Shown: positions 1,614 through 20,879 of the stretch, piece after piece
Layout: every line of letters starts with the position of its first letter
Position numbering within the stretch: position 1 is the stretch's first letter
DNA from: a virus
Strand: one strand, 5' to 3'
DNA length: 20,879 bases
IMG/VR virus record: IMGVR_UViG_3300020192_000226
Coordinates: 1 to 20,879 of that record
Translations under genes and position numbers: made by a program
Notes under the pieces: generated by a model
Told to the model about the DNA's origin: nothing
Database searches by the model: none
What the model saw: only the letters and a program-made list of their open reading frames with translations

Positions 1614-2131
1614 TTTATTCCTTTCACAAAATTAGTTACTTTAGTTACAAAGGTTGCGACCTTGCCTTTTTCTTCGATGGTGCGCTTGCGGTAATGTAGC
1701 GCTCTTTTATACCAGTGTTTTGCTGATTTTCCTTTATACATATCGTTCTCTTTCTTTAATATTTGCCCTCGCTTAACGGTAATATTGCTTAAATGAAAGT
1801 ATGAATACACTTGACCGCTGCCGTTTTCAAGCCTGACATATTTGCCAATCATACTGTTGTTGCCAGTCTCTATGACTTTGACTGGTGCTTTAAGTGTAAA
1901 GCCAGTGTTTAGAGGGTTGACTACTTTGCCACCAGATACTTTTTGTATATGCAGATGTGGTCCAGTAGATTTACCTGTGCTGCCTGCTAGGCCGATCGTT
2001 GCTCCATTAACAATGACAGGCGTTCCTGTTGGCATTGCACGATCTGCGCCGAGGTGTGGACGGCTAGGACTATATGGGTTAGTAGTAGCACCGTACTTAA
2101 ATGTGATGGGATAATCTTTAGCTTGCTTCAT
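1610..2131 (-). CDS. M23-type endopeptidase (endolysin), permuted motif order
   Basis: 173 aa; the ATG at 2131 overlaps the stop of the 21-aa peptide as ATGA. The metallopeptidase signature is clear: HLGAD with H26 and D30, then GTPV, then GSTGKSTGPHLHIQ with H59 and H61. By analogy with LytM, H26, D30 and H61 would bind zinc and H59 would be catalytic. The strand pair that normally lies between the HxxxD and HxH motifs, ending in a Y-x-H-L motif, comes after them here (VYSYFHLSNITVKRGQIL, H113), so the fold looks circularly permuted. The C-terminal ~45 residues are basic and helical (SAKHWYKRALHYRKRT) and may bind the envelope. It would cut peptide cross-bridges of the host wall at lysis. 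There is no signal peptide, so release depends on a holin. Confidence 0.85.
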   Translation of the reverse strand: MKQAKDYPITFKYGATTNPYSPSRPHLGADRAMPTGTPVIVNGATIGLAGSTGKSTGPHLHIQKVSGGKVVNPLNTGFTLKAPVKVIETGNNSMIGKYVRLENGSGQVYSYFHLSNITVKRGQILKKENDMYKGKSAKHWYKRALHYRKRTIEEKGKVATFVTKVTNFVKGIK

Positions 2132-2193
2132 ACTTTAATTATACACCCTATGACAAAGCTAATGCTAATAAATGTACCTTGACTATAACTCAT
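2128..2193 (-). CDS. 21-aa hydrophobic peptide before the endolysin
   Basis: A short gene with a strong ribosome site (AAGGAG, 5 nt before the ATG at 2193). It starts one base after the preceding stop, and its TGA (2130-2128) overlaps the endolysin ATG as ATGA. The peptide begins MSYSQGTF, then ISISFVIGCIIKV, which is a single hydrophobic segment with one basic residue near the end. The endolysin has no ribosome site of its own, so translation through this gene is probably what starts lysin synthesis. It may be a pure leader peptide, a small holin or pinholin-like protein, or both. Confidence 0.6.
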   Translation of the reverse strand: MSYSQGTFISISFVIGCIIKV

Positions 2194-2194
2194 A

Positions 2195-2545
2195 TCACTC
2201 CTTATTTTGAATAATTTGATGCTCAACAGTTTGTTCTCGAACTTCTTGAGTCGTTGAGTTTTTAGCTAATACTTTGGCAGTCGTGGCGGCTGTTTGCGTG
2301 ATCTCAGTTGAGATTTTTGTAAGCTTCTGGATAACTTCATTGTGGAACTCATTATCTCTACCATTGCGTTGGCGTAGATATTCATCTGCTGACCTTGTAG
2401 CTTGTGTGTTTAGTTCCGTTGCAGTAACTAACCTATCCATTACAGGCATGAACGCTGTAAATAAATACTTAATTATCCAGATTAAAGCCCCAACAACCGT
2501 GGCTAGTATACCCACGATTGATATTATTATAGCTGAATCTATCAT
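2195..2545 (-). CDS. Membrane-anchored coiled-coil protein of the lysis cassette
   Basis: 116 aa from the ATG at 2545, which overlaps the TGA of the previous gene as ATGA. An in-frame ATG at 2563 would add six residues and cannot be excluded. One strong transmembrane helix is at about residues 4-27 (SAIIISIVGILATVVGALIW). The rest is polar and probably helical, with heptad-like spacing and many Q, T and E residues (for example NEFHNEVIQKLTKISTEITQT). This shape fits BhlA/UviB-type phage holins or a spanin-like anchor. The family is not certain. Position upstream of the endolysin supports a lysis role. Confidence 0.6.
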   Translation of the reverse strand: MIDSAIIISIVGILATVVGALIWIIKYLFTAFMPVMDRLVTATELNTQATRSADEYLRQRNGRDNEFHNEVIQKLTKISTEITQTAATTAKVLAKNSTTQEVREQTVEHQIIQNKE

Positions 2546-2805
2546 GCTACTGGTTCCGCCCATATTTTTGCTTGCGGCTCTTTCGGTGGGCGAGTAGATA
2601 GCTCAACATTAGCTATATTTTTTCGTGTAATCTCATAGCCGTTTTTTTCTAAAAACTCAAGCCTATCAGGGTAATTAATGTGCAGCTTTACCGGATGTTC
2701 CATTTCGTCAAACTCTGCCTCAGTAAGCTCTTTATCAGCTTTCATGGTAGGCACTACATAACCTTTTTCTCTTTCCCACACCTCTAATTTTTTTGTATCA
2801 GACAT
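2542..2805 (-). CDS. Small hypothetical protein after the tail fibre
   Basis: 87 aa. The ATG at 2805 is preceded by AAAGGAGT. The protein is charged and soluble, with an acidic middle (KADKELTEAEFDEMEHP), a likely strand-rich section (VKLHINYPDRLEFLEKNGYEI) and a proline-rich tail (STRPPKEPQ). There are no membrane segments or catalytic motifs. Standing directly after a fibre gene, it could be a fibre assembly chaperone or a minor virion protein. I do not recognise the family and this is only a positional guess. Confidence 0.6.
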   Translation of the reverse strand: MSDTKKLEVWEREKGYVVPTMKADKELTEAEFDEMEHPVKLHINYPDRLEFLEKNGYEITRKNIANVELSTRPPKEPQAKIWAEPVA

Positions 2806-2817
2806 CTTTTGACTCCT

Positions 2818-3651
2818 TTAAGTTGTAGCTATTAACCAACCGCTAAAGTATGTTTCTGCAGTGCCGTTTGTAATCGCTGCCGCTGCCACATCATACCTAA
2901 CATAAAAGTCTATTGTATCACCAGCCACAAGGGTTGCTGTATCGGCAAAGACAGGGCGCGAAAAGCCAGTCATCGAGTATTGAGACCCTTGAGAATAGAC
3001 CACACCGTTTTTATTCATCTGAGTAATTGCTAGACCTCCTGAAGTACCTGTACCTGAACGCGCAGCACCACAAAAAGCATATATCCCATTAACCGGCACT
3101 GTGTACCTATAGTTTGTAACAGCATCCCAATTATTATTTGTATCATAGCTCTCGGCATTAAATGTAATTTTTGTAAAAACCCCATTCACATGGTTACAAA
3201 CTTGGTTCAGATAAACCCTAAATGCGTATGGGTTGGTCCACTTAGCTGGCTCAACTGCTCCATCCTTTAAAGTCCCGTCTTGATCTAAAGATGTTAGGAG
3301 TGTGTCGATAAGGCGATTGTGATTGTAGCTTGATACTAAAATGTATACACGTGTCGTTGATCCAGCGGAATAGTTTCTGTTTGCGTCACCACCTGCATAA
3401 ACCATGTTTGTGATTTGGGTTGCGCCCGCTACGACACCTCGGAAAATGTTATAAGTTCCTGTGACACGAACGTACTCACCGTTTACTAATTCAACCTCAT
3501 CAATAGCGAATACTACGCCAGTATCTGTCGGCCAGTTAGAAGTCGAACCTACGTTAATTGATGTACCGGCGATTGTATACCCCGGTGCAGACAAAGTAGT
3601 CGCTGTGCTTAATCCTACTTTCATAAATCCGTCTGTGTTTAATGCTGGCAT
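2818..3651 (-). CDS. Tail fibre protein with C1q-like C-terminus
   Basis: 277 aa; the ATG at 3651 is one base after the stop of the nozzle gene. Residues ~1-110 look like a phage fibre attachment region, with a strand-rich section (TGVVFAIDEVELVNGEY) and a conserved-looking turn, SYNHNRLID...DQDGTLKDG. From about residue 140 to the end the pattern fits a C1q/TNF-like jelly-roll head: FRVYLNQ, KITFNAESYDTNNNWD, YTVPVNGIYAFCG, ITQMNKNGVVYSQG, VAGDTIDFYVRY and a terminal YFSGWLI. Such heads are trimeric and are common at the tips of phage fibres, where they bind receptors. It probably attaches to the tail built from the preceding two proteins. Confidence 0.75.
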   Translation of the reverse strand: MPALNTDGFMKVGLSTATTLSAPGYTIAGTSINVGSTSNWPTDTGVVFAIDEVELVNGEYVRVTGTYNIFRGVVAGATQITNMVYAGGDANRNYSAGSTTRVYILVSSYNHNRLIDTLLTSLDQDGTLKDGAVEPAKWTNPYAFRVYLNQVCNHVNGVFTKITFNAESYDTNNNWDAVTNYRYTVPVNGIYAFCGAARSGTGTSGGLAITQMNKNGVVYSQGSQYSMTGFSRPVFADTATLVAGDTIDFYVRYDVAAAAITNGTAETYFSGWLIATT

Positions 3652-3652
3652 T

Positions 3653-5638
3653 TTATGCTCCTGTTTTTAGTGTTAATTGATCTAGTGCTTGACCTCTGGT
3701 ATTTACGGCACTCAGTAAATAATCAGTACCTATTGAATTTGAGGTAACTTCCCAATCAAGTTGAGCAAGAAGTCCTCTCGGTTTAATTCTCAACACGGCA
3801 ACACTAGAACCAAAAGTATTTACTTCGCCCGGATCTTCGTCGTATTGGTGTTGGTCGTATTGCCAAATGTCATAGCCTGTTGGTGTGGTTGTTACGCTAA
3901 ACGAATCACTACCAACTGTTTGTTCAACAGCTCGTCGAGAAAGTCCAGTTGCGTTTACTTGAATAGCGCCTTTCGGGAATAAAAACTTGTAGTATTGGCT
4001 TTGAATGACACCGAGGTTTAAACCATCTTCGTCCCAAACAAGAGACTCAAAGGCAAGACGGCTTGTAAAAGCTACGTCATTATCTTGGTGAAACTGTGCA
4101 CCAGCTCTTGTAAATTCTAGTATTACATTATTTACTAATACACAATGATGGGTGAATCCGGCGTTATCTTCATACAGCCACATATCTTTTACTGCCATCG
4201 GCCAGCGAAGTACCCAGAGATTTCGTCTTGCTAAATCCATATACCAGATTTCATTGTTCTCAGTTGTTCCAACGGGTAGTGCAAAGTAAAGACGATCACG
4301 GTAAGCAAGTCCAACAGCTTTATGAAGGCTATCAAGATTCAAGCGTAATAGATCCGGTTCAATAACTTGAGAGATAGTATTAGTCGTTAGAATGTTAACG
4401 ATATTCTGTGAAGTACCAGTTGACTTAAATTCTGTACCAGTAGGATAGTACAATGAATCACCCTCTTTAATAGTGGCACGAGGTGAATATGTGCCAGATT
4501 GTCCGTTGGCTTCGTATACGTTTGGATAGACGATAATCTGATCCCCTACTGTGAGAGAGTCAAAACTTACGTGATATAGCTTTCCTCTACCGGCTGCACC
4601 ACGAGCGGAAACAGTAATAACTGGATCGCCCTTACCATTACGGAAACCGTCAACATAGTTAAGTTGAGTATCACCCGCTATGTCAATACCTACATAACCA
4701 CCACCATTATAGGGTGAGAAATCGCCAGTTCCAGGAGCTGAGTAATAAAGATAGTTGTCGGCTGTAATACCGAATATTTGAGAGTTTTTAGTATCTGTGT
4801 ACATCCATGTGAATACCGCGCCTTGAGTAGAGTTGCCGTCTGGCGCAAGTTTAAAGGTGTTTACCGCTAATGTACCGTAATCTACAAATGTATTTGTGGT
4901 GTTGCCAGACACGGTATAAAGCTCGAAACAGTTGCCCGCTTCGTCACCGTAATACACCGTATAGCTTGTTGCGTTGGTGACTGCCGACCATGTAACAGTT
5001 ATAAAATCAGTGTTTTCTACCCAACTTTCACGAACTTTACCAGAGGTAACAGTTCCAGCGGTTGAGGCGATTGATTCACCTACTTCATTATTGGCAGATA
5101 TACGGTAGAAATGAGGAAATGTTGCACCAGCCATACCTGTTTTAACGGGTGTAGGAGCGCCAGGAGTAGCCAGCGAAGTATAAGTATGGATAGTATCAGC
5201 CGCAAGATTAACATAAGACAAGTTATCAACTCCGTTATAAACGTATAATCTTCCTTTACTCTGTACGCCCATCATCCACGCTTCATCATCGTAACTACCG
5301 CCAATAGTACTAATTGCGCCACCATCTGTCTGTTTATAGATTTTACCAGTACCAGCGTCATCCATTGCCCAGTAAATACTACGCATACTGTTATAGCGCA
5401 CCATAGCACGTCCAATGACTGTTCGAGAAGGCTGTACACCGTATTTAACTGTAGGTGGTCGTGGTCGCGGGATAGAATCCTGCACGATCTCCATATTTGT
5501 CATATCAGAGAGTGACGTAAGAGGTCGACGAGAGTTGTCGATTGTAGAGATGTAAGCTTTATCCCACTTGTTCTGGTGGATGTTAATCTCTTTACGTGCT
5601 TTGCGTTTATTTCGCTGGCCACTAACTTGATAAGCCAT
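3653..5638 (-). CDS. Tail nozzle-like beta-propeller protein with FN3 insert
   Basis: 661 aa, ATG at 5638. The basic N-terminus is followed by SRRPLTSLSDMTNMEIVQD and PRPRPPTVKYG, a pattern typical of podoviral nozzle or stabilisation proteins (comparable in role to T7 gp12 or P22 gp10). Blade-like repeats follow: RLYVYNGVDNLSYVNL, KLYHVSFDSL, and RLYFALPVG...NEIWYMDLARRNLWVLRWP. Residues ~158-250 form an inserted fibronectin type III-like domain, starting PGAPTPVK and including TVTWSAVTNATSYTVYYG. The protein would form the distal tail tube and close the DNA channel. It is adjacent to an adaptor-like gene upstream and a fibre gene downstream, the usual order for short-tailed phages. Confidence 0.75.
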   Translation of the reverse strand: MAYQVSGQRNKRKARKEINIHQNKWDKAYISTIDNSRRPLTSLSDMTNMEIVQDSIPRPRPPTVKYGVQPSRTVIGRAMVRYNSMRSIYWAMDDAGTGKIYKQTDGGAISTIGGSYDDEAWMMGVQSKGRLYVYNGVDNLSYVNLAADTIHTYTSLATPGAPTPVKTGMAGATFPHFYRISANNEVGESIASTAGTVTSGKVRESWVENTDFITVTWSAVTNATSYTVYYGDEAGNCFELYTVSGNTTNTFVDYGTLAVNTFKLAPDGNSTQGAVFTWMYTDTKNSQIFGITADNYLYYSAPGTGDFSPYNGGGYVGIDIAGDTQLNYVDGFRNGKGDPVITVSARGAAGRGKLYHVSFDSLTVGDQIIVYPNVYEANGQSGTYSPRATIKEGDSLYYPTGTEFKSTGTSQNIVNILTTNTISQVIEPDLLRLNLDSLHKAVGLAYRDRLYFALPVGTTENNEIWYMDLARRNLWVLRWPMAVKDMWLYEDNAGFTHHCVLVNNVILEFTRAGAQFHQDNDVAFTSRLAFESLVWDEDGLNLGVIQSQYYKFLFPKGAIQVNATGLSRRAVEQTVGSDSFSVTTTPTGYDIWQYDQHQYDEDPGEVNTFGSSVAVLRIKPRGLLAQLDWEVTSNSIGTDYLLSAVNTRGQALDQLTLKTGA

Positions 5639-5640
5639 AA

Positions 5641-6513
5641 TTAACGTCTCGTTGGTGAGTTAATTCGATGGCCCGTGTAAGGAATTCGTCGCGGATTACT
5701 AAACGTACCAGCACGGTTCTGAGCAACCATAGCTCTGTATAGCGCATTAGCTTTTTCGTTTAAGCCTGAAGATTTGTCTTCATACACAAGGTCGTTAAAT
5801 GCAATCTCTGAAGCCACACTCATGACACCCCAGTTTGGGTCAGGGAATGGCAATAAGTCAGTTGCAGCAGTTAAGTCGTTAGGAAGGTAATAACCTGGTA
5901 CTGATAGTGTTCCACCAACTAGATTATTGGTTGCTGCAATGGTATCTATAAATGTAATAACTTTAGGATTAAGTCCAGTGATGTAAACCGCGCCGTTAAA
6001 ATCGTTACGTTCTTGTGGTTTTAAAAAGCTTTGATAATGAATGTCGCTAGTAGTTGTAACAATAGCCTGATCGCTTGGTGCTAGGAATGATCGGTGTAAA
6101 TTATAAGATTGCACACCTGTAGCAATAATAGTTGCATGTGTAAAGGTTAAAGCAGAAGCAGTGGTGCTAAATGCTACGGTTACGGTTAAAGAGGTGTTGC
6201 TTGAAATAGTTGCAATAGTACGAACAGTCTCGCCGCTTACCACAATAGTATCGCCAACACGGTAATCGCTAAAGTAAGTGCTTGTACCTGTTAAGGTTGT
6301 AGTTCCAGCAGTAGCAACAGTACCAGGCTCATTCGGAGAAGTCGCTGAAAAGGATTCTTGCCACTTTGTACGGGTATCACGGTAAAGCTCATCCTTTTTA
6401 GAATTAAGCACTGATAGCCACTGTACGGCTTCTTCATCACCAAAGGTAGGGGCTAAATCGTCTGTGCCTCGGAGGGCATAAGAAGTTTTAATTAAAAAAC
6501 TGGCAACGTCCAT
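5641..6513 (-). CDS. Head-tail adaptor-like structural protein
   Basis: 290 aa, ATG at 6513. The helical start (FLIKTSYALRGTDD, then EEAVQWLSVLNSKKDELYRDTRTKWQ) and the long C-terminal half (VMSVASEIAFNDLVYEDKSSGLNEKANALYRAMVAQNR) fit a podoviral adaptor or tail-tube A-type protein that sits below the portal. Between them, at residues ~63-128, is a beta domain with the pattern TTTLTGTSTYFSDYRVGDTI, a common inserted module of phage virion proteins. It is the first gene after a strong promoter and directly precedes the nozzle-like gene. The assignment rests on gene order and pattern, not on a database match. Confidence 0.65.
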   Translation of the reverse strand: MDVASFLIKTSYALRGTDDLAPTFGDEEAVQWLSVLNSKKDELYRDTRTKWQESFSATSPNEPGTVATAGTTTLTGTSTYFSDYRVGDTIVVSGETVRTIATISSNTSLTVTVAFSTTASALTFTHATIIATGVQSYNLHRSFLAPSDQAIVTTTSDIHYQSFLKPQERNDFNGAVYITGLNPKVITFIDTIAATNNLVGGTLSVPGYYLPNDLTAATDLLPFPDPNWGVMSVASEIAFNDLVYEDKSSGLNEKANALYRAMVAQNRAGTFSNPRRIPYTGHRINSPTRR

Positions 6514-6563
6514 CGTATATCCTTAATCGGGTTCGACGATGCGGTTAGCCGTTTATACACACT

Positions 6564-6592
6564 ATTATACATCAAAACCTTAAGCTTTTCTA
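6564..6592 (-). promoter_or_regulatory. Late promoter of the tail and lysis genes
   Basis: On the minus strand TAGAAA (6592-6587), a 17-bp spacer, then TATAAT (6569-6564), about 50 nt before the ATG at 6513. The -10 box is the perfect consensus. The -35 box lies in the last codons of the 1702-aa gene. The same TAGAAA-N17-TATAAT arrangement occurs at 13427-13399. It would drive the adaptor, nozzle, fibre and lysis genes. Confidence 0.7.
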
Positions 6593-9500
6593 GGTTTCTT
6601 TATTACTGCATCTTCTACAAGTTGGCGCAAACTCTTACTACTAGATTGCATCGAGCCAACATTTCCGAAACCGTATTGTTTAAAGTCATCGAGAGAACGA
6701 CCATCTGAACGACTGCCTGATCCACCACCACGCGCATATCCACCCTTGCCAGAGCCTTTTGCAGAATACTTGTTATCGGACTCTTCTCGTTTAATTTTAG
6801 GTAAGCCAAGTTTCTTACGTTCTCTATCAGTCCATTTGTTTTGTTTATCCCATTGTCCAGTGATTTGTTCCCATATAGCAGGGTTGTTTCGTATAAAGCT
6901 ACTACGTTCACCCGTGCCAGAAGGTAGTTTAAAGTAGTGATCCATGTGTTTTCGTACATCAGCTTTAGTTTCTGGGTAGGGGTTAGTGTCTTTAATATCA
7001 GCAAAACCACGTGCTTCGGTGTACTTACCTTTAGACTTGTAGTATTTATCTTGTTTGTTTCGGAAGTCCTGATACCAGGGCTTATCATATAGAGTGTTAA
7101 ATCCCTCATCTTTAGAGCCAGGAAGTTTAAGTTTCTTAGCTAAGATAATATCACGTCTAGCTTTGTTTAAGTTAAACACGGGGTCAACAGGTCGTTTGTC
7201 GTACTTATTCTGCATTCTAGCGTATTTTTCTTCGGCTTTAAATAGTGCAGGATTTTGTAACAATTCTCCAGCATTTTTATACTTATACCAGGGGTCTTCA
7301 GTAAACTCTTTCATCAGACCTGATCTAGTCTGGTTGCTCTTATGCCGAGTTTCAAAGGATTTGCGAGTTGTATCATCAAGAGTTGCTTTGAACTTATCGA
7401 CTTCACCAAAGAAGCCAAACATCTTATCAGTCTTACGTTTTTCTTTTGATTCTTCAGCGCCGAACTTTTGAGCACGAACACCTAGTAAACGCCATGCTGC
7501 TTGACCAACAGACTTCTTGCTCCCAGAGGTGTTGAACCCTGTTCTACCGAGGAAGTCTACATTTTTCTGAGAAGGGTCGTATTTAGATCCATCGGCAGCT
7601 TGTTCGTTGCGTTTATTCTGGTTAACCGCTGAGAGGATGTCACCAACTTCATTAACTGGATATGGTGCGTAACTTCTAACACCATATTGTAGACGATTTC
7701 TCCATTTGTCTTTTTCAGAGAGTTTATCGTCTGGGAATAATTCTTTACCTTTGCGAACACCGTCAGGGTCAGATACTGATTTACCGCGCCAATCTACATC
7801 ACCAACAGCGCTGATTACAGGGCCAATAAGAGGATCTGTAGCAGCCTTCTTGACAATCTCTTCCTTGCTAAGGTTGCTCGGTATATTAACCGGTGCAAGA
7901 CGAGACAGGTTATCGGCAAGGCTATTACCGTCAATATCTTGTCTCATATAGAGAGGGGTAAAACGAGCAGCATCAACAGCGCCATAAGGAGTTTGGAACT
8001 CAGTAGATACGTTAGTGAATGGTATCTTAGGCGCTCCAGCACGATCTTCACGTGTTTTCTTGTCTTCAACGGTTTCGCCTGAAAGACTACTTAAACCATT
8101 ACCCAGTGCAGCTATACCAGCAATCATTGCACCTAGTCGAAGAGGATGATCAATAGCAGCGTTCTTTAGAATACTAGTATAAAGATCGCCCTGGAAACGT
8201 ACAAAAGCGTTACCAAAGATCGGCATCTTTGCAGCCATATCGTAACCATGTCCAACACGTGAGTAATCTTGGAAACCCTTGCGTGTTTTAGCTATCGCTT
8301 CGTTGACCGAAAGACCACGGTTAACGTGTGACTTTAATGCCGCAAGTTTAGCAATATCATCGGCTTGACCATATCTCAGTGAAAGTTTGCCATCAATCTC
8401 ACGTGGAGCATCTTTTGTTTTGTCCCATAATCCACTAGTGTTTCTATCGAGATCCTGAAAAAACGCCTTGTCTTTGTCGAATATGTTTTTATCAGTACGG
8501 ACAATATCATTACCAATTAAGCCTTGTCGTTGAGCAGCTAGTGCAAGAGGGTCATCGTTTTTCAATGCTTTACTAGCCCAGAACTTGTTATTCTGGTAAG
8601 TGGCAGGGTTGATTCCGTTTAAGTATGCAAAGAAGTAGCTTGTCGTAACGTTACCAGCCCTGACAACAGGGTTATATATAGTAAGCATCTTTTTACGCAT
8701 TCTACGTAGAGGGTTGCCGTCATACAGATCCAAGAGGTTATTCATAGCATTCATGCCCTCGCCCATTGCGCGGAAACCTTCTATGTTCTCGAATACGTCT
8801 TGGCGTACATATTTACCGGACCAGTTAGCCATACGGTTTTGAGGTGTGACCTTTACAAAACCACCCTTAGGTGTCGCTGATACATAGCCCTTGCCCTCGG
8901 CTGTCATCATGTAAGTTAGTAACGCTTCGTTCTGGCGTACTTGCCTAGCACGTATAACAGCTAACTTGACAGGATCACGGATAAGTTTTTGCCTAAGTGC
9001 ATCGTTCATTTCAACACGGCTCTTGTACATGCCAAGGTGAAGCCCTCGCTTATCAGGCATTTCAAGTAAGTCGGCTACGTCTTCTGAAGAGGCTATATCA
9101 CGGTATAGACGTGCAATATATCGTCCACCCCTGTTAGATTCCCATTTCTTTTTACTAATAAAGCCTGTTCGGTATGAGGTATCGTTAATAGCATCACCAA
9201 GATCGCGAAGCATGTTTACGGCTTGTTTCTCGTTGTCGGAAAGATCAGCAAACTTTACGGCTGCCCCAGATCCTTCTGGGTCGAGGACTGCATGTACGCG
9301 AGCGCGAGAAGTTTCATCACCTAATAAATCATAGGCTTGTTTACCTACTTTAAGAAGTGACGAATCAGCATAAGAATTATCACCTGCATATTTTTGTGCA
9401 GCTTTGATCATATCCGGGTCTTGACCAGCGTTCTTGTTGATGTACTGTACAACGCGGTTTATCCTGCGAGCAACTCTACCGCCACGAGATAGTTTTTCTA

Positions 9501-11688
9501 AGCCCTTAGCAAGTTTGTCGTGTGCAATTCGAGTAACGTTTAAGCTTCTTACTTTTTCTCGTGCAGCCTGTACTTTACCGAGTGTTTCATATTTAGGACT
9601 AGAGACATCCAAAGCCGCATCATCGAGTTCTTCAATATTTAGATATTTGTTGACCACTGAATCAATAGTGTTTTTAGGCTTCTCTTGAATTTCCTTAACA
9701 CCGTAGTCGGCTTGATCTTGCATGTCTTTCAAGAGGTTCTTTTTACGGCTATTCTTAACTTTATCCATAGCTTTAGTAGTGCCAGATAGATCAATACCTT
9801 TTTCAATTTCACCTAGATCCTGCGCGGCTTTTTCAGGAGTCACGCCGAACGTTTCTGCATATTCTTTTGCCTGTAAAGATGGTTCGCTTTGAATCGTGCG
9901 AGCCAATCCAGCCTTATCATTCTTGATACGAACTGTGTCAACCCTACCAGCACGAGGTTTTGTTTCTTTAAGAATGAAGCCTTTGGGTTTATTGTTTTTA
10001 GTAGGCTTTAAATTAGCCTGTTCTAAATCAGCTTCGAACGGAGACTTTGGTACAGAGGGTTGAGAGGTTGGGGTGAGGTCTTTCTTACCACCTGGAAGCC
10101 CGACGTAGCCACCCTGGTTTTTATCAATCGAGGTAGGATTGCGCTTTAGATTATCTTCTGCCATGAGATCCTGTAACGCCTGTTGTCTTTGACCATTTTT
10201 GTAGAATCTAGGCTGTATACCTTCAGAATTGAGCTGTTTGACTATTGCTTCCCTTTGTGCCTTTGGTAATCCCTCTGGTATTAAAGCGTTCTCAAATTCG
10301 CTTAACTTAACTGCTCTGCTTGTAGTAGGCTGTTTTACGTTGGCTTCATCAAGCGGAGTTGCGCTAACTAGTTTAGTAGTAGGCTGTTTACCAAAACCTT
10401 CCTGAGTTAGGCGTTGATCGAATACATTGGCTAGTTTCTTAGGATCGCTTGGCATGTCTAAACCATACCGTTCAGCTATATGTGAAGCGTCTAACTCTAA
10501 GTTGAAAGCTGTATTAGAATCTGGTTTATAAGTGCCTCGTTGCATGTCTATAAAATCAGACATTATATTTTTATCTTCAGGGTGTATCTTCTTCGGAGTC
10601 CGACCTACTTGAACGAAACCATCTTGATTAAGCGGCTTAAGGCCTAGAGAATTAGTAGGCTGTTTTATGTTAACTTCATCAAGCGGAGTTGCGTTAACTA
10701 GTCCAGTAGTAACCTTTTTACCTGAACGAGTGATACGACCTATAGCTGGGCCTATATTAGCCATAAGACCACCAGTAGCAGCCGACATAAAAGTTTGCTC
10801 TGGGCTAAAGTGATCTCTAGTAATTTGTTGCTCTAATACGTCTTGAGCACCACCCTCTATAGCACCAGCAGTAAAACGCATACCGGTTCGTGCAGCAGCG
10901 TTCGGCGCTTTACTTAATAAGTTAGCAGTAAGACCTGCGCCTTTAGTGAGTGGCATAATTTCAAGTCCTGCCTGTCCAGCAGTTGCTAGTGTTCGCTTGG
11001 TAATATCTTTAGCGCCAAGAGTGTTAAACTGTTCAGGGTTGTCAAAGATTGTACCTTGTCCAAGTGCGCCGCTATCTGCTTGGTAGGCTTTTTGCTTAAA
11101 GCGTTGGTTGGCTTCGTTAATAGCTTTATAGGCTTTATTATTACCAGTAGCCTGTGCGCCGTACATTAAAGCGGTATCAGCGGTTTCACGTAATGCTGCT
11201 TTAAAAGTATTATCCATACGAGCAGTACCACCCGCAAGTGCAGCACCTATGTTTTGATAAGGACGCTTATTACCTTGTGCAATTTGTTGATCTCTGTATG
11301 ATTGGTTAAGTTTAGGAGCTTCCGGCTTTGCTAATATTTTATAAGATGTTTGATTATTAGCCAGCGCATCTCTTCTAGATTTTTCGTTAGTTCGAGAAAC
11401 TTCTTCTAGTCCCCTCCGACGTTCTTGCAAAGCTTCTTGATTACGTTTCCAGTAGTCTTGAGGAGTGTTTGCATCAAGAACATCTCTACCTCGATTTATA
11501 ACTGCACCCAAACCACTACCATAGCTAGGCATAGGACCTTTAGGATTGTTGTTGTTTGCAGCAGGGCGTGTTTGAGCCGGTGAAGGCGCTTGTCGTTGCG
11601 CTCTCACCGTCTTTGCTGTTTTACCCTTATCAAACGGGTTGATTTGGGCAGTGGCTTCTTCAAACCAGTTGCGGAGACTAAAGCCCAT
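6580..11688 (-). CDS. Giant internal virion/ejection protein (1702 aa)
   Basis: 1702 aa, ATG at 11688 with AGGAAAC upstream. The N-terminus (MGFSLRNWFEEATAQINPFD) is followed by a low-complexity linker, then an Ala/Gly-rich helical region (to ~320). A disordered stretch carries repeats of the type ATPLDE..KQPT (about residues 326-345 and 437-456). The long helical body includes NPVVRAGNVTTSYFFAYLNG (~1005) and a hydrophobic stretch LRLGAMIAGIAALG (~1185). The tail is very basic and Gly/Ser-rich (GSGKGGYARGGGSGSRSDG, ~1645-1665). Size, position and make-up fit the large core proteins that short-tailed phages eject into the cell. The middle also recalls phage 'large polyvalent' proteins. No catalytic motif could be identified. 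Confidence 0.7.
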   Translation of the reverse strand: MGFSLRNWFEEATAQINPFDKGKTAKTVRAQRQAPSPAQTRPAANNNNPKGPMPSYGSGLGAVINRGRDVLDANTPQDYWKRNQEALQERRRGLEEVSRTNEKSRRDALANNQTSYKILAKPEAPKLNQSYRDQQIAQGNKRPYQNIGAALAGGTARMDNTFKAALRETADTALMYGAQATGNNKAYKAINEANQRFKQKAYQADSGALGQGTIFDNPEQFNTLGAKDITKRTLATAGQAGLEIMPLTKGAGLTANLLSKAPNAAARTGMRFTAGAIEGGAQDVLEQQITRDHFSPEQTFMSAATGGLMANIGPAIGRITRSGKKVTTGLVNATPLDEVNIKQPTNSLGLKPLNQDGFVQVGRTPKKIHPEDKNIMSDFIDMQRGTYKPDSNTAFNLELDASHIAERYGLDMPSDPKKLANVFDQRLTQEGFGKQPTTKLVSATPLDEANVKQPTTSRAVKLSEFENALIPEGLPKAQREAIVKQLNSEGIQPRFYKNGQRQQALQDLMAEDNLKRNPTSIDKNQGGYVGLPGGKKDLTPTSQPSVPKSPFEADLEQANLKPTKNNKPKGFILKETKPRAGRVDTVRIKNDKAGLARTIQSEPSLQAKEYAETFGVTPEKAAQDLGEIEKGIDLSGTTKAMDKVKNSRKKNLLKDMQDQADYGVKEIQEKPKNTIDSVVNKYLNIEELDDAALDVSSPKYETLGKVQAAREKVRSLNVTRIAHDKLAKGLEKLSRGGRVARRINRVVQYINKNAGQDPDMIKAAQKYAGDNSYADSSLLKVGKQAYDLLGDETSRARVHAVLDPEGSGAAVKFADLSDNEKQAVNMLRDLGDAINDTSYRTGFISKKKWESNRGGRYIARLYRDIASSEDVADLLEMPDKRGLHLGMYKSRVEMNDALRQKLIRDPVKLAVIRARQVRQNEALLTYMMTAEGKGYVSATPKGGFVKVTPQNRMANWSGKYVRQDVFENIEGFRAMGEGMNAMNNLLDLYDGNPLRRMRKKMLTIYNPVVRAGNVTTSYFFAYLNGINPATYQNNKFWASKALKNDDPLALAAQRQGLIGNDIVRTDKNIFDKDKAFFQDLDRNTSGLWDKTKDAPREIDGKLSLRYGQADDIAKLAALKSHVNRGLSVNEAIAKTRKGFQDYSRVGHGYDMAAKMPIFGNAFVRFQGDLYTSILKNAAIDHPLRLGAMIAGIAALGNGLSSLSGETVEDKKTREDRAGAPKIPFTNVSTEFQTPYGAVDAARFTPLYMRQDIDGNSLADNLSRLAPVNIPSNLSKEEIVKKAATDPLIGPVISAVGDVDWRGKSVSDPDGVRKGKELFPDDKLSEKDKWRNRLQYGVRSYAPYPVNEVGDILSAVNQNKRNEQAADGSKYDPSQKNVDFLGRTGFNTSGSKKSVGQAAWRLLGVRAQKFGAEESKEKRKTDKMFGFFGEVDKFKATLDDTTRKSFETRHKSNQTRSGLMKEFTEDPWYKYKNAGELLQNPALFKAEEKYARMQNKYDKRPVDPVFNLNKARRDIILAKKLKLPGSKDEGFNTLYDKPWYQDFRNKQDKYYKSKGKYTEARGFADIKDTNPYPETKADVRKHMDHYFKLPSGTGERSSFIRNNPAIWEQITGQWDKQNKWTDRERKKLGLPKIKREESDNKYSAKGSGKGGYARGGGSGSRSDGRSLDDFKQYGFGNVGSMQSSSKSLRQLVEDAVIKKPRKA
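10323..10710 (-). repeat. Internal 58-bp repeat in the giant gene
   Basis: Positions 10323-10380 and 10653-10710 match at 52 of 58 bases by my hand alignment, 330 bp (110 codons) apart and in the same reading frame. They encode LVSATPLDEANVKQPTTS and LVNATPLDEVNIKQPTNS. A shorter third copy, coding for KQPTT, begins at 10390. The repeats lie in a disordered linker, so they may be spacer units or short binding motifs. Confidence 0.75.
10852..10890 (-). repeat. 39-bp segment shared with the 150-aa gene
   Basis: This stretch of the giant gene encodes RTGMRFTAGAIEG. It matches 11805-11843 in the neighbouring 150-aa gene at 36 of 39 bases by hand alignment, in the same frame. It is the only place where the two genes share more than their start region. 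Confidence 0.75.
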
Positions 11689-19619: not shown

Positions 19620-20177
19620 TTACTTATAGTACCTTAGTTCTGCTGCCTTTCGAGCCTCTATAGCTTTACTCAAGTCTTTGTAGTAGCCGAGGTGCAGCCT
19701 GGTCTTCTCTATAACAATGTCTACTTTGTATTTCTTGTTACGAGTGGCCCAGCATACTCCACGCACACCAGTCTTATTCGTTGAAGGAGTACGGCGGTTA
19801 TTGGCTTGTTGGGTTCTAGTAGCCCATCGACAATTGTCTGGAGAGTATTCTCCGTCGTTGTCTTTACGGTCTAGCGTCCACCCTTTCGGGCGTCTACCCA
19901 TATCTTCTATGAAGTTGTGAAAACCAGTTTCACCGAGCCAACGGTCACAAACCCTTATGCCTCTTGCACCCCAATCGGGGTAGTTGTCGCACGTTGGGTT
20001 GTAACAACGTTGTTTCATATTCTGATAGGTCTGCCATAACACGTGCTTAGTACGTCCATCTCTGTTTACAAGAGCAATGTTAGGGTCTCCATGCTTTGCC
20101 TTACGTTGGTAATGCATTGCACAGTAATCCTTGGCATAGTATTTCTTCTGGCAGTTATCGACGGTGCATGCTATCAT
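19620..20177 (-). CDS. Free-standing HNH homing endonuclease with AP2-like domain
   Basis: 185 aa from the ATG at 20177; a TTG at 20195, directly after an in-frame stop, is an alternative start. The N-terminus has a zinc-ribbon-like set, C4, C9, C19, H22 (ACTVDNC ... YCAMHY). The middle matches the common phage HNH family: [53 protein letters not shown] and [10 protein letters not shown]. The C-terminus ([39 protein letters not shown]) resembles an AP2 DNA-binding domain. It is wedged between the capsid gene and a head gene and lies outside the capsid-gene intron, so it is a free-standing mobile endonuclease. Confidence 0.85.
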
Positions 20178-20221
20178 ATATGTATATGATAGCAATTACG
20201 TCACAAATTGTAAAGGTACTA
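19627..20221 (-). repeat. 9-bp inverted repeat bracketing the endonuclease gene
   Basis: AAGGTACTA at 20213-20221 and its exact reverse complement TAGTACCTT at 19627-19635 flank almost the whole endonuclease gene; the second copy overlaps its last codons. In RNA this would be a long-range 9-bp pair. It could mark the inserted unit, or be chance. Confidence 0.4.
20170..20193 (-). promoter_or_regulatory. Perfect hairpin over the endonuclease start codon
   Basis: GCTATCATATA, two bases, then TATATGATAGC: an inverted repeat with 11-bp arms and a 2-nt gap. The ATG at 20177-20175 lies inside the 3' arm on the mRNA. A hairpin would hide the start codon. As DNA the same sequence could be an operator. 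Confidence 0.65.
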
Positions 20222-20227
20222 CCTCAA

Positions 20228-20749
20228 TTAACTCGTTTTATGGATAGCCAATGAGAAGATCTTGTTCAGGTCAAAGAAAGCATCGTAGCGTATCCTGTAT
20301 TCAATTAAGTAACCGCTTACGCCTGGTGGGTTTTTGTGAACTTGATAGTCTTTTAGCTTTTCTGGTGCACATAGAGCGCTAGGGTGCGTGATAATTAAAT
20401 CAGTTGCACTTGGCATACGACCACTAGGAACAACAACGATTTTACAACCGTCAACCATTCCAAGGTCTCCACTGTCTAATTTGCCCTGGCCTTTATCACT
20501 ATCTAATACGAATCCACCCTGTTTAAGGAGATTGTAGTAAGAAGCGGTCATCAATGCAACTCGTCCGTCTTCAGGAGCTTCGTTGTTTGTTGAGTCAGCT
20601 TGCAAAGTTAAGAAGTTAGTGTAAGCGTTTGCGGCAGTAGTAGCGCCAGCTGTAACAATGTTGTTACGAGCTGTGATTGTGCCGTAGTTTCCACCGTTAG
20701 TCAAAGCACCAGCAGTTGCTAGTGTTGCTAGTCGGAATGTGTCAACTTC
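20228..20749 (-). CDS. Major capsid protein, second exon (C-terminal part)
   Basis: 173 residues are visible, ending with TAA at 20230-20228. It opens EVDTFRLATLATAGALTNGG, then TTAANAYTNFLTLQADSTNN, RVALMTASYYNLLKQGG, GDLGMVDGCKIVVVPSGRMP, IITHPSALCAPEKL and YRIRYDAFFDLNKIFSLAIH. This is the pattern of the C-terminal half of HK97-fold capsid proteins, in which a buried helix like EVDAY... is normally mid-protein, so the N-terminal half is missing here. The in-frame ATG at 20752-20750 is best explained as the last bases of the intron and not as a true start. The first exon lies beyond the right edge. Confidence 0.75.
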   Translation of the reverse strand, partial: EVDTFRLATLATAGALTNGGNYGTITARNNIVTAGATTAANAYTNFLTLQADSTNNEAPEDGRVALMTASYYNLLKQGGFVLDSDKGQGKLDSGDLGMVDGCKIVVVPSGRMPSATDLIITHPSALCAPEKLKDYQVHKNPPGVSGYLIEYRIRYDAFFDLNKIFSLAIHKTS

Positions 20750-20879
20750 CATTATCTTCGGTATAAGTCGTTAGCCTATACCCGTTCTCTTTTGAACTGC
20801 TAACAGTTGTCCTGCTAGATGAGACCATATCTTCATCTGCTTTATGCAGAGTCATCCACTTCCACTCACTTGAGTGTAC
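20750..20879 (-). ncRNA. Group I intron, 3' end (partial)
   Basis: On the minus strand, in order: a hairpin CACTC/GAGTG (20876-20863); GACT (20853-20850) as the 5' strand of P7; a P8-like hairpin TCTGC/GCAGA (20850-20836, so its first T is shared with GACT); AAGATATGGTC (20833-20823), which matches the conserved S element and pairs GGTC with GACT; a P9-like hairpin AACTG/CAGTT (20808-20795); a second hairpin GGTATA/TATACC (20782-20760). The intron would end with G at about 20750, after which the capsid frame is open. The GTTAGC and GCTAAC loops of the last two hairpins are complementary. The 5' part, and any intron-coded protein, are outside the window. Confidence 0.7.

Follow-up and report, generated by a model that had tools for sequence, protein, structure and literature searches.

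A predicted td-like group I intron in an uncultured phage interrupts its major capsid gene

In the window (the whole stretch of DNA analysed here, 20,879 bp, which is the complete IMG/VR record IMGVR_UViG_3300020192_000226), a capsid reading frame near the right end lacks its beginning. We wondered where the rest of this gene is and what separates the two parts. A preliminary description, made from the letters of the window, proposed that a group I intron interrupts the gene. The capsid frame it recognized is real: the ORF at 20752–20228 (minus strand) matched the major head protein family phrog_422 over the C-terminal part only (E 1.5e-18) and the Pfam family PF21703, Gp10A-like, above the curated cut-off (E 6e-7). 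Its exon part is 83–90% identical to uninterrupted capsid genes of related viral contigs (L003–L012), and a capsid search of genome contigs for a host or prophage returned no relative. Between the contig end and this conserved part lie 130 nt of non-capsid sequence on the same strand. The ATG at 20752 forms its final three bases, so that the exon begins at 20749. We rejected a simple truncation of the gene by the contig end, because these 130 nt are conserved intron sequence preceding exon 2. The first exon, which the preliminary description had expected upstream, is absent from the window and present on an overlapping contig.

That contig, IMGVR_UViG_3300020192_000141 (11,717 bp; hereafter L015), was the one other viral contig to contain a 24-nt piece of the intron end; no further record of the viral collection contained it. 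The L015 terminus is identical to window positions 20753–20879 (minus strand) over 127 nt, and the gene content of the two contigs is complementary: L015 has terminase, portal and further head genes, the window has tail genes. Neighbouring contigs are expected to share exactly 127 nt when this is the longest word used by the assembler. Both contigs are therefore probably neighbours from one assembly graph, and the locus described below is two contigs joined by this overlap, not a single read-through assembly. The overlap stops 3 nt short of the intron 3' end, which suggests that the graph branches there (several strains or alleles). Elsewhere in the window, one ORF of 1702 codons spans positions 6580–11688; its product may be a large protein of the virion interior or one that is ejected.

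Across the join, the insertion measures 867 nt (L015 10854–11717 plus window 20752–20750). Joining the exons without it yields a full-length frame for a 286-aa capsid protein, which aligns without gaps to seven uninterrupted 286-aa relatives at 81.5–88.5% identity. This places the insertion after codon 113 (...ACGTGCTTGTTCCT^GAAGTTGACAC...) and makes the ATG at 20752 the end of the intron. The boundary was set by comparison with the uninterrupted relatives, which read GAA or GAG after exon 1, whereas L015 reads AAACTTTTGGGAC (that is, AAACTTTTGGGACTTT). At every capsid locus inspected at this site, L015 excepted, the junction is an uninterrupted CC[T/A]GA. The resulting boundaries, CCT^AAAC ... 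AATG^GAAG, give an exon 1 ending in U and an intron ending in G, and the spliced mRNA would carry the junction ...GTGCTTGTTCCT^GAAGTTGACACATTCC (CCT^GAA). Positions of all features are collected in Table 1.

Table 1 Positions of the capsid locus, the intron elements and the terminase reading frames
Feature	Contig	Position	Strand	Basis or remark
Free-standing HNH endonuclease gene	window	19620..20195	-	phrog_374, E 1.6e-52; start TTG 20195 or ATG ~20177
Major capsid protein exon 2 (173 codons + stop)	window	20228..20749	-	phrog_422, PF21703, relatives
Group I intron 3' part, last 130 of 867 nt	window	20750..20879	-	127 nt identical to L015 end
P9.2 hairpin GGUAUAG ... UUAUACC	window	20760..20782	-	alignment of 11 introns
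P9.1 hairpin GUUC AAAAGA GAAC	window	20784..20797	-	alignment of 11 introns
P9 hairpin CUAGCAG GACAA CUGUUAG	window	20800..20818	-	compensatory changes in alignment
S element AAGATATGGTC	window	20823..20833	-	J8/7 + P7 3' strand TGGTC 20827-20823
P8 hairpin UCUGC AUAAA GCAGA	window	20836..20850	-	alignment of 11 introns
P3 3' strand UGGAUG	window	20853..20858	-	can pair with CAUCUG at L015 10893-10898
P7.2 hairpin CACTC AAGT GAGTG	window	20863..20876	-	alignment of 11 introns
Capsid exon 1 (113 codons, ends ...GTTCCT)	L015	10515-10853		
Group I intron, first 737 nt	L015	10854-11590		in L015 only
P/Q element GAATTGCTGGGAA	L015	10898		
R element GGCAATCAGCAGC	L015	10942		
In-intron endonuclease ORF NUMOD4-HNH (194 codons, 585 nt)	L015	11002-11586	same strand as intron	Pfam
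Terminase / HNH frame	L015	4912-6558 / 5685-6395		
Terminase / HNH frame	L049	1112-3376 / 2749-3159		
Terminase / open frame	L057 (Tetrasphaera phage TJE1)	589-2775 / 1713-2627		
Terminase / open frame	L058 (Acinetobacter phage Highwayman)	496-2778 / 1959-2633		

The start of the capsid gene in L015 has a peculiarity of its own. Positions 10515–10517 read ATA, where relatives with a readable start have ATG, and the stretch from the preceding stop to this ATA has no in-frame ATG, GTG or TTG. The sequence shortly before the ATA contains a hairpin, AGCAAATACA CAA TGTATTTGCT. The ATA may be a sequencing error, a rare start codon or something else, and with ATA in place of ATG the expression of the capsid in this genome is not fully explained.

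What kind of element is the insertion? At the gathering threshold, Rfam gave no match on the window or on L003–L015, and we used the E-value mode instead. The Intron_gpI model then found a truncated, sub-threshold match in the window (17.4 bits against a gathering score of 50; E 0.079). Extending this search beyond the window end, as the preliminary description had proposed, brought a better match in the 5' half on L015 (E 1.7e-4) that still lies below the gathering score; the probable reason is that the model is split by the contig break and by the 585-nt ORF. In the Rfam alignment P1 is UCCUAA/UUGGGA, which puts a U-G wobble pair at the splice site; by RNAfold alone a different register, GUUCC/GGGAC, is slightly favoured (-5.2 versus -4.8 kcal/mol).

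The 3' domain gave a clearer signal. A blastn search with the 3' 140–170 nt matched 176 phage records, with E-values down to 7e-15. We fetched eleven of them, and several of the annotated ones sit in split genes: td with an I-TevI ORF, RNA polymerase, DNA polymerase and primase/helicase. In an alignment of L015 with ten of the fetched records (11 introns), the 3' domain forms P7, P7.1, P7.2, P8, P9, P9.1 and P9.2, and double-sided compensatory changes occur in 18 of the 35 consensus pairs. All five pairs of P7, the guanosine-site helix, are kept in all 11 introns, with a compensatory change from U-A to C-G (GACCA/UGGUC here versus GACUA/UAGUC in the other ten). P7.2 is likewise kept throughout, with changes C-G/U-A and U-A/C-G, while P8 can be drawn in each of the 11 from differing sequences. 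P9.2 keeps 77 of 77 pair cells and shows multiple compensatory changes; P9.1 is invariant and so carries no covariation evidence. The covariation analysis covered the 3' domain. For the putative P3, which would form a pseudoknot with P7, the complementarity of the strands CAUCUG and UGGAUG is seen directly. The core elements follow in the expected order, P/Q AAUUGCUGGGAA, R GGCAAUCAGCAGC and S AAGAUAUGGUC.

These results redraw part of the fold given in the preliminary description. Its P8, S element and P9 stand in the order described, while its P7 does not: the first hairpin in the window (20876–20863) is P7.2, and the true P7 pairs TGGTC with a 5' strand, GACCA, that ends 12–13 nt beyond the window end, at L015 11574–11578. 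The group I class, which had been drawn from the S element, holds on a broader basis, namely the homology of the whole 3' core and its covariation. Among the established group I classes we place the intron in subgroup IA, for its arrangement of P7.1 and P7.2 and its resemblance to the td intron. Together with the related 3' cores in other phage introns and with the exon and core on L015, the sequence comparison makes it very probable that the major capsid gene is interrupted after codon 113 by an 867-nt td-like IA group I intron.

Could the two halves instead belong to a broken capsid gene, degenerate or misassembled, with an intron-like tail that is chimeric, the window and L015 representing separate strains that have only the intron end in common? 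An overlap of exactly 127 nt does fit a junction in an assembly graph where more than one path may meet, and the ATA at the start of the L015 capsid would suit a broken gene. Yet exons 1 and 2 are both intact and form a perfect junction relative to the seven relatives, packaging and portal genes in L015 complement the tail genes of the window, and the intron end recurs nowhere else in the viral collection. Even if two strains were involved, each half would be an intron flank at the same site. We consider such a broken or chimeric gene very improbable.

An insertion of an HNH gene with no ribozyme intron, the capsid being made as two separately translated polypeptides, is scarcely credible. It could draw on the in-frame ATG at 20752, from which exon 2 would be read, and on the exon 1 frame, which runs on for 12 codons to a stop. 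That ATG, however, is the last three bases of the intron, and an intact capsid start at 20752, one of the findings the preliminary description had named as speaking against its own reading, does not hold. The preceding 127 nt form a group I 3' domain that is conserved, covaries and is found in other split phage genes, and a group I P/Q/R core comes after exon 1; on domain and core together we rejected separate translation of exon 2 from this ATG.

Under the interpretation of a group I intron, and by analogy with its family, the transcribed intron would fold, excise itself by two guanosine-initiated transesterifications and join the exons, and every capsid subunit would be made from spliced mRNA. 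The ORF within the intron matched NUMOD4 (E 1.7e-16) and HNH_3 (E 8e-11) in Pfam, above cut-off. As in related endonucleases, its HNH protein may cleave or nick capsid alleles that lack the intron, at the place of insertion or close to it, and repair would then copy the intron into the cut allele. An intron ORF together with intronless alleles is what homing introns typically show, and we infer homing from it. A search of viral contigs with the endonuclease returned L015 itself and two distant relatives only, and thus no second copy of this intron. Directly downstream of capsid exon 2 lies a free-standing HNH gene; none of the eight intronless relatives examined showed it there. It is unlikely, though conceivable, that its product works alongside the intron HNH, or in its place, to spread the intron together with its flank (collaborative homing), the two enzymes forming one homing unit.

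Phage capsid genes with group I introns have been described before, and the present one adds one case. The major capsid gene of mycobacteriophage LittleE holds an intron whose splicing was shown by RT-PCR and N-terminal sequencing of the capsid protein (PMC3706429), and a capsid-gene group I intron of lactococcal phage Tuc2009 is cited in the same paper (PMC3706429); the huge gut Jug phages have many essential genes split by introns (PMC12363816). The LittleE gene shares with our locus an endonuclease ORF within a group I-like intron, a U at the end of exon 1, a G as the last intron base, and intronless alleles in close relatives (PMC3706429). LittleE belongs to another phage group, however, and the class of its intron was judged only 'most likely' group I; its ORF lies on the opposite strand and is LAGLIDADG-like (PMC3706429), whereas the one here is a same-strand NUMOD4-HNH.

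Another close system is the T4-type td intron in the thymidylate synthase gene of Pseudomonas phage PspYZU05 (L037), which matches ours at ~70% of nucleotides across the 3' 147 nt and has the same layout of P7.1, P7.2, P8, P9, P9.1 and P9.2; it differs in its host gene and in its ORF, which is annotated as I-TevI and not HNH. The 3' cores of crAss-like cr116_1 (L032), the RNA polymerase gene of Acinetobacter phage vB_MZM_4AB-P (L033) and bajarodcaudo virus 1 (L034) are 72–74% identical, and the next gene is annotated from the match end or a few bases off. These too interrupt other host genes, and an HNH ORF is not present in all of them. The locus gives a well-delimited example of a predicted self-splicing intron in the virion gene whose product an uncultured phage needs in the greatest amount, and the intronless alleles at the same site allow comparison. 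Viral contigs can end within such introns, and capsid genes can consequently appear truncated or missing in annotation.

A further arrangement, in the terminase gene of L015, is perhaps more interesting than the capsid intron: the DNA that codes for an intein in this gene also encodes, in a second reading frame, an HNH endonuclease. Four large-terminase genes from unlike phages, belonging to more than one terminase family by Pfam, contain an intein with in-frame Hint or Intein_splicing matches, and in all four the HNH lies in the middle part of the intein, in a frame shifted by +2 (equivalent to -1) relative to the terminase. When L015 is compared with L049, identity is ~60% over 88 aa in the HNH frame and much lower in the intein frame of that stretch. 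In the literature we found, an out-of-frame HNH is described only in a non-intein insertion, that of ShiLan (PMC11855218), and the intein version may be undescribed. The L015 terminase large subunit itself (3685–6558) appears split into two ORFs, an ATPase-like N-terminal part recognized by eye (3685–4482) and a nuclease part (4912–6558) that holds the intein. Between them lies a NinG-like gene (Pfam NinG) at 4479–4925.
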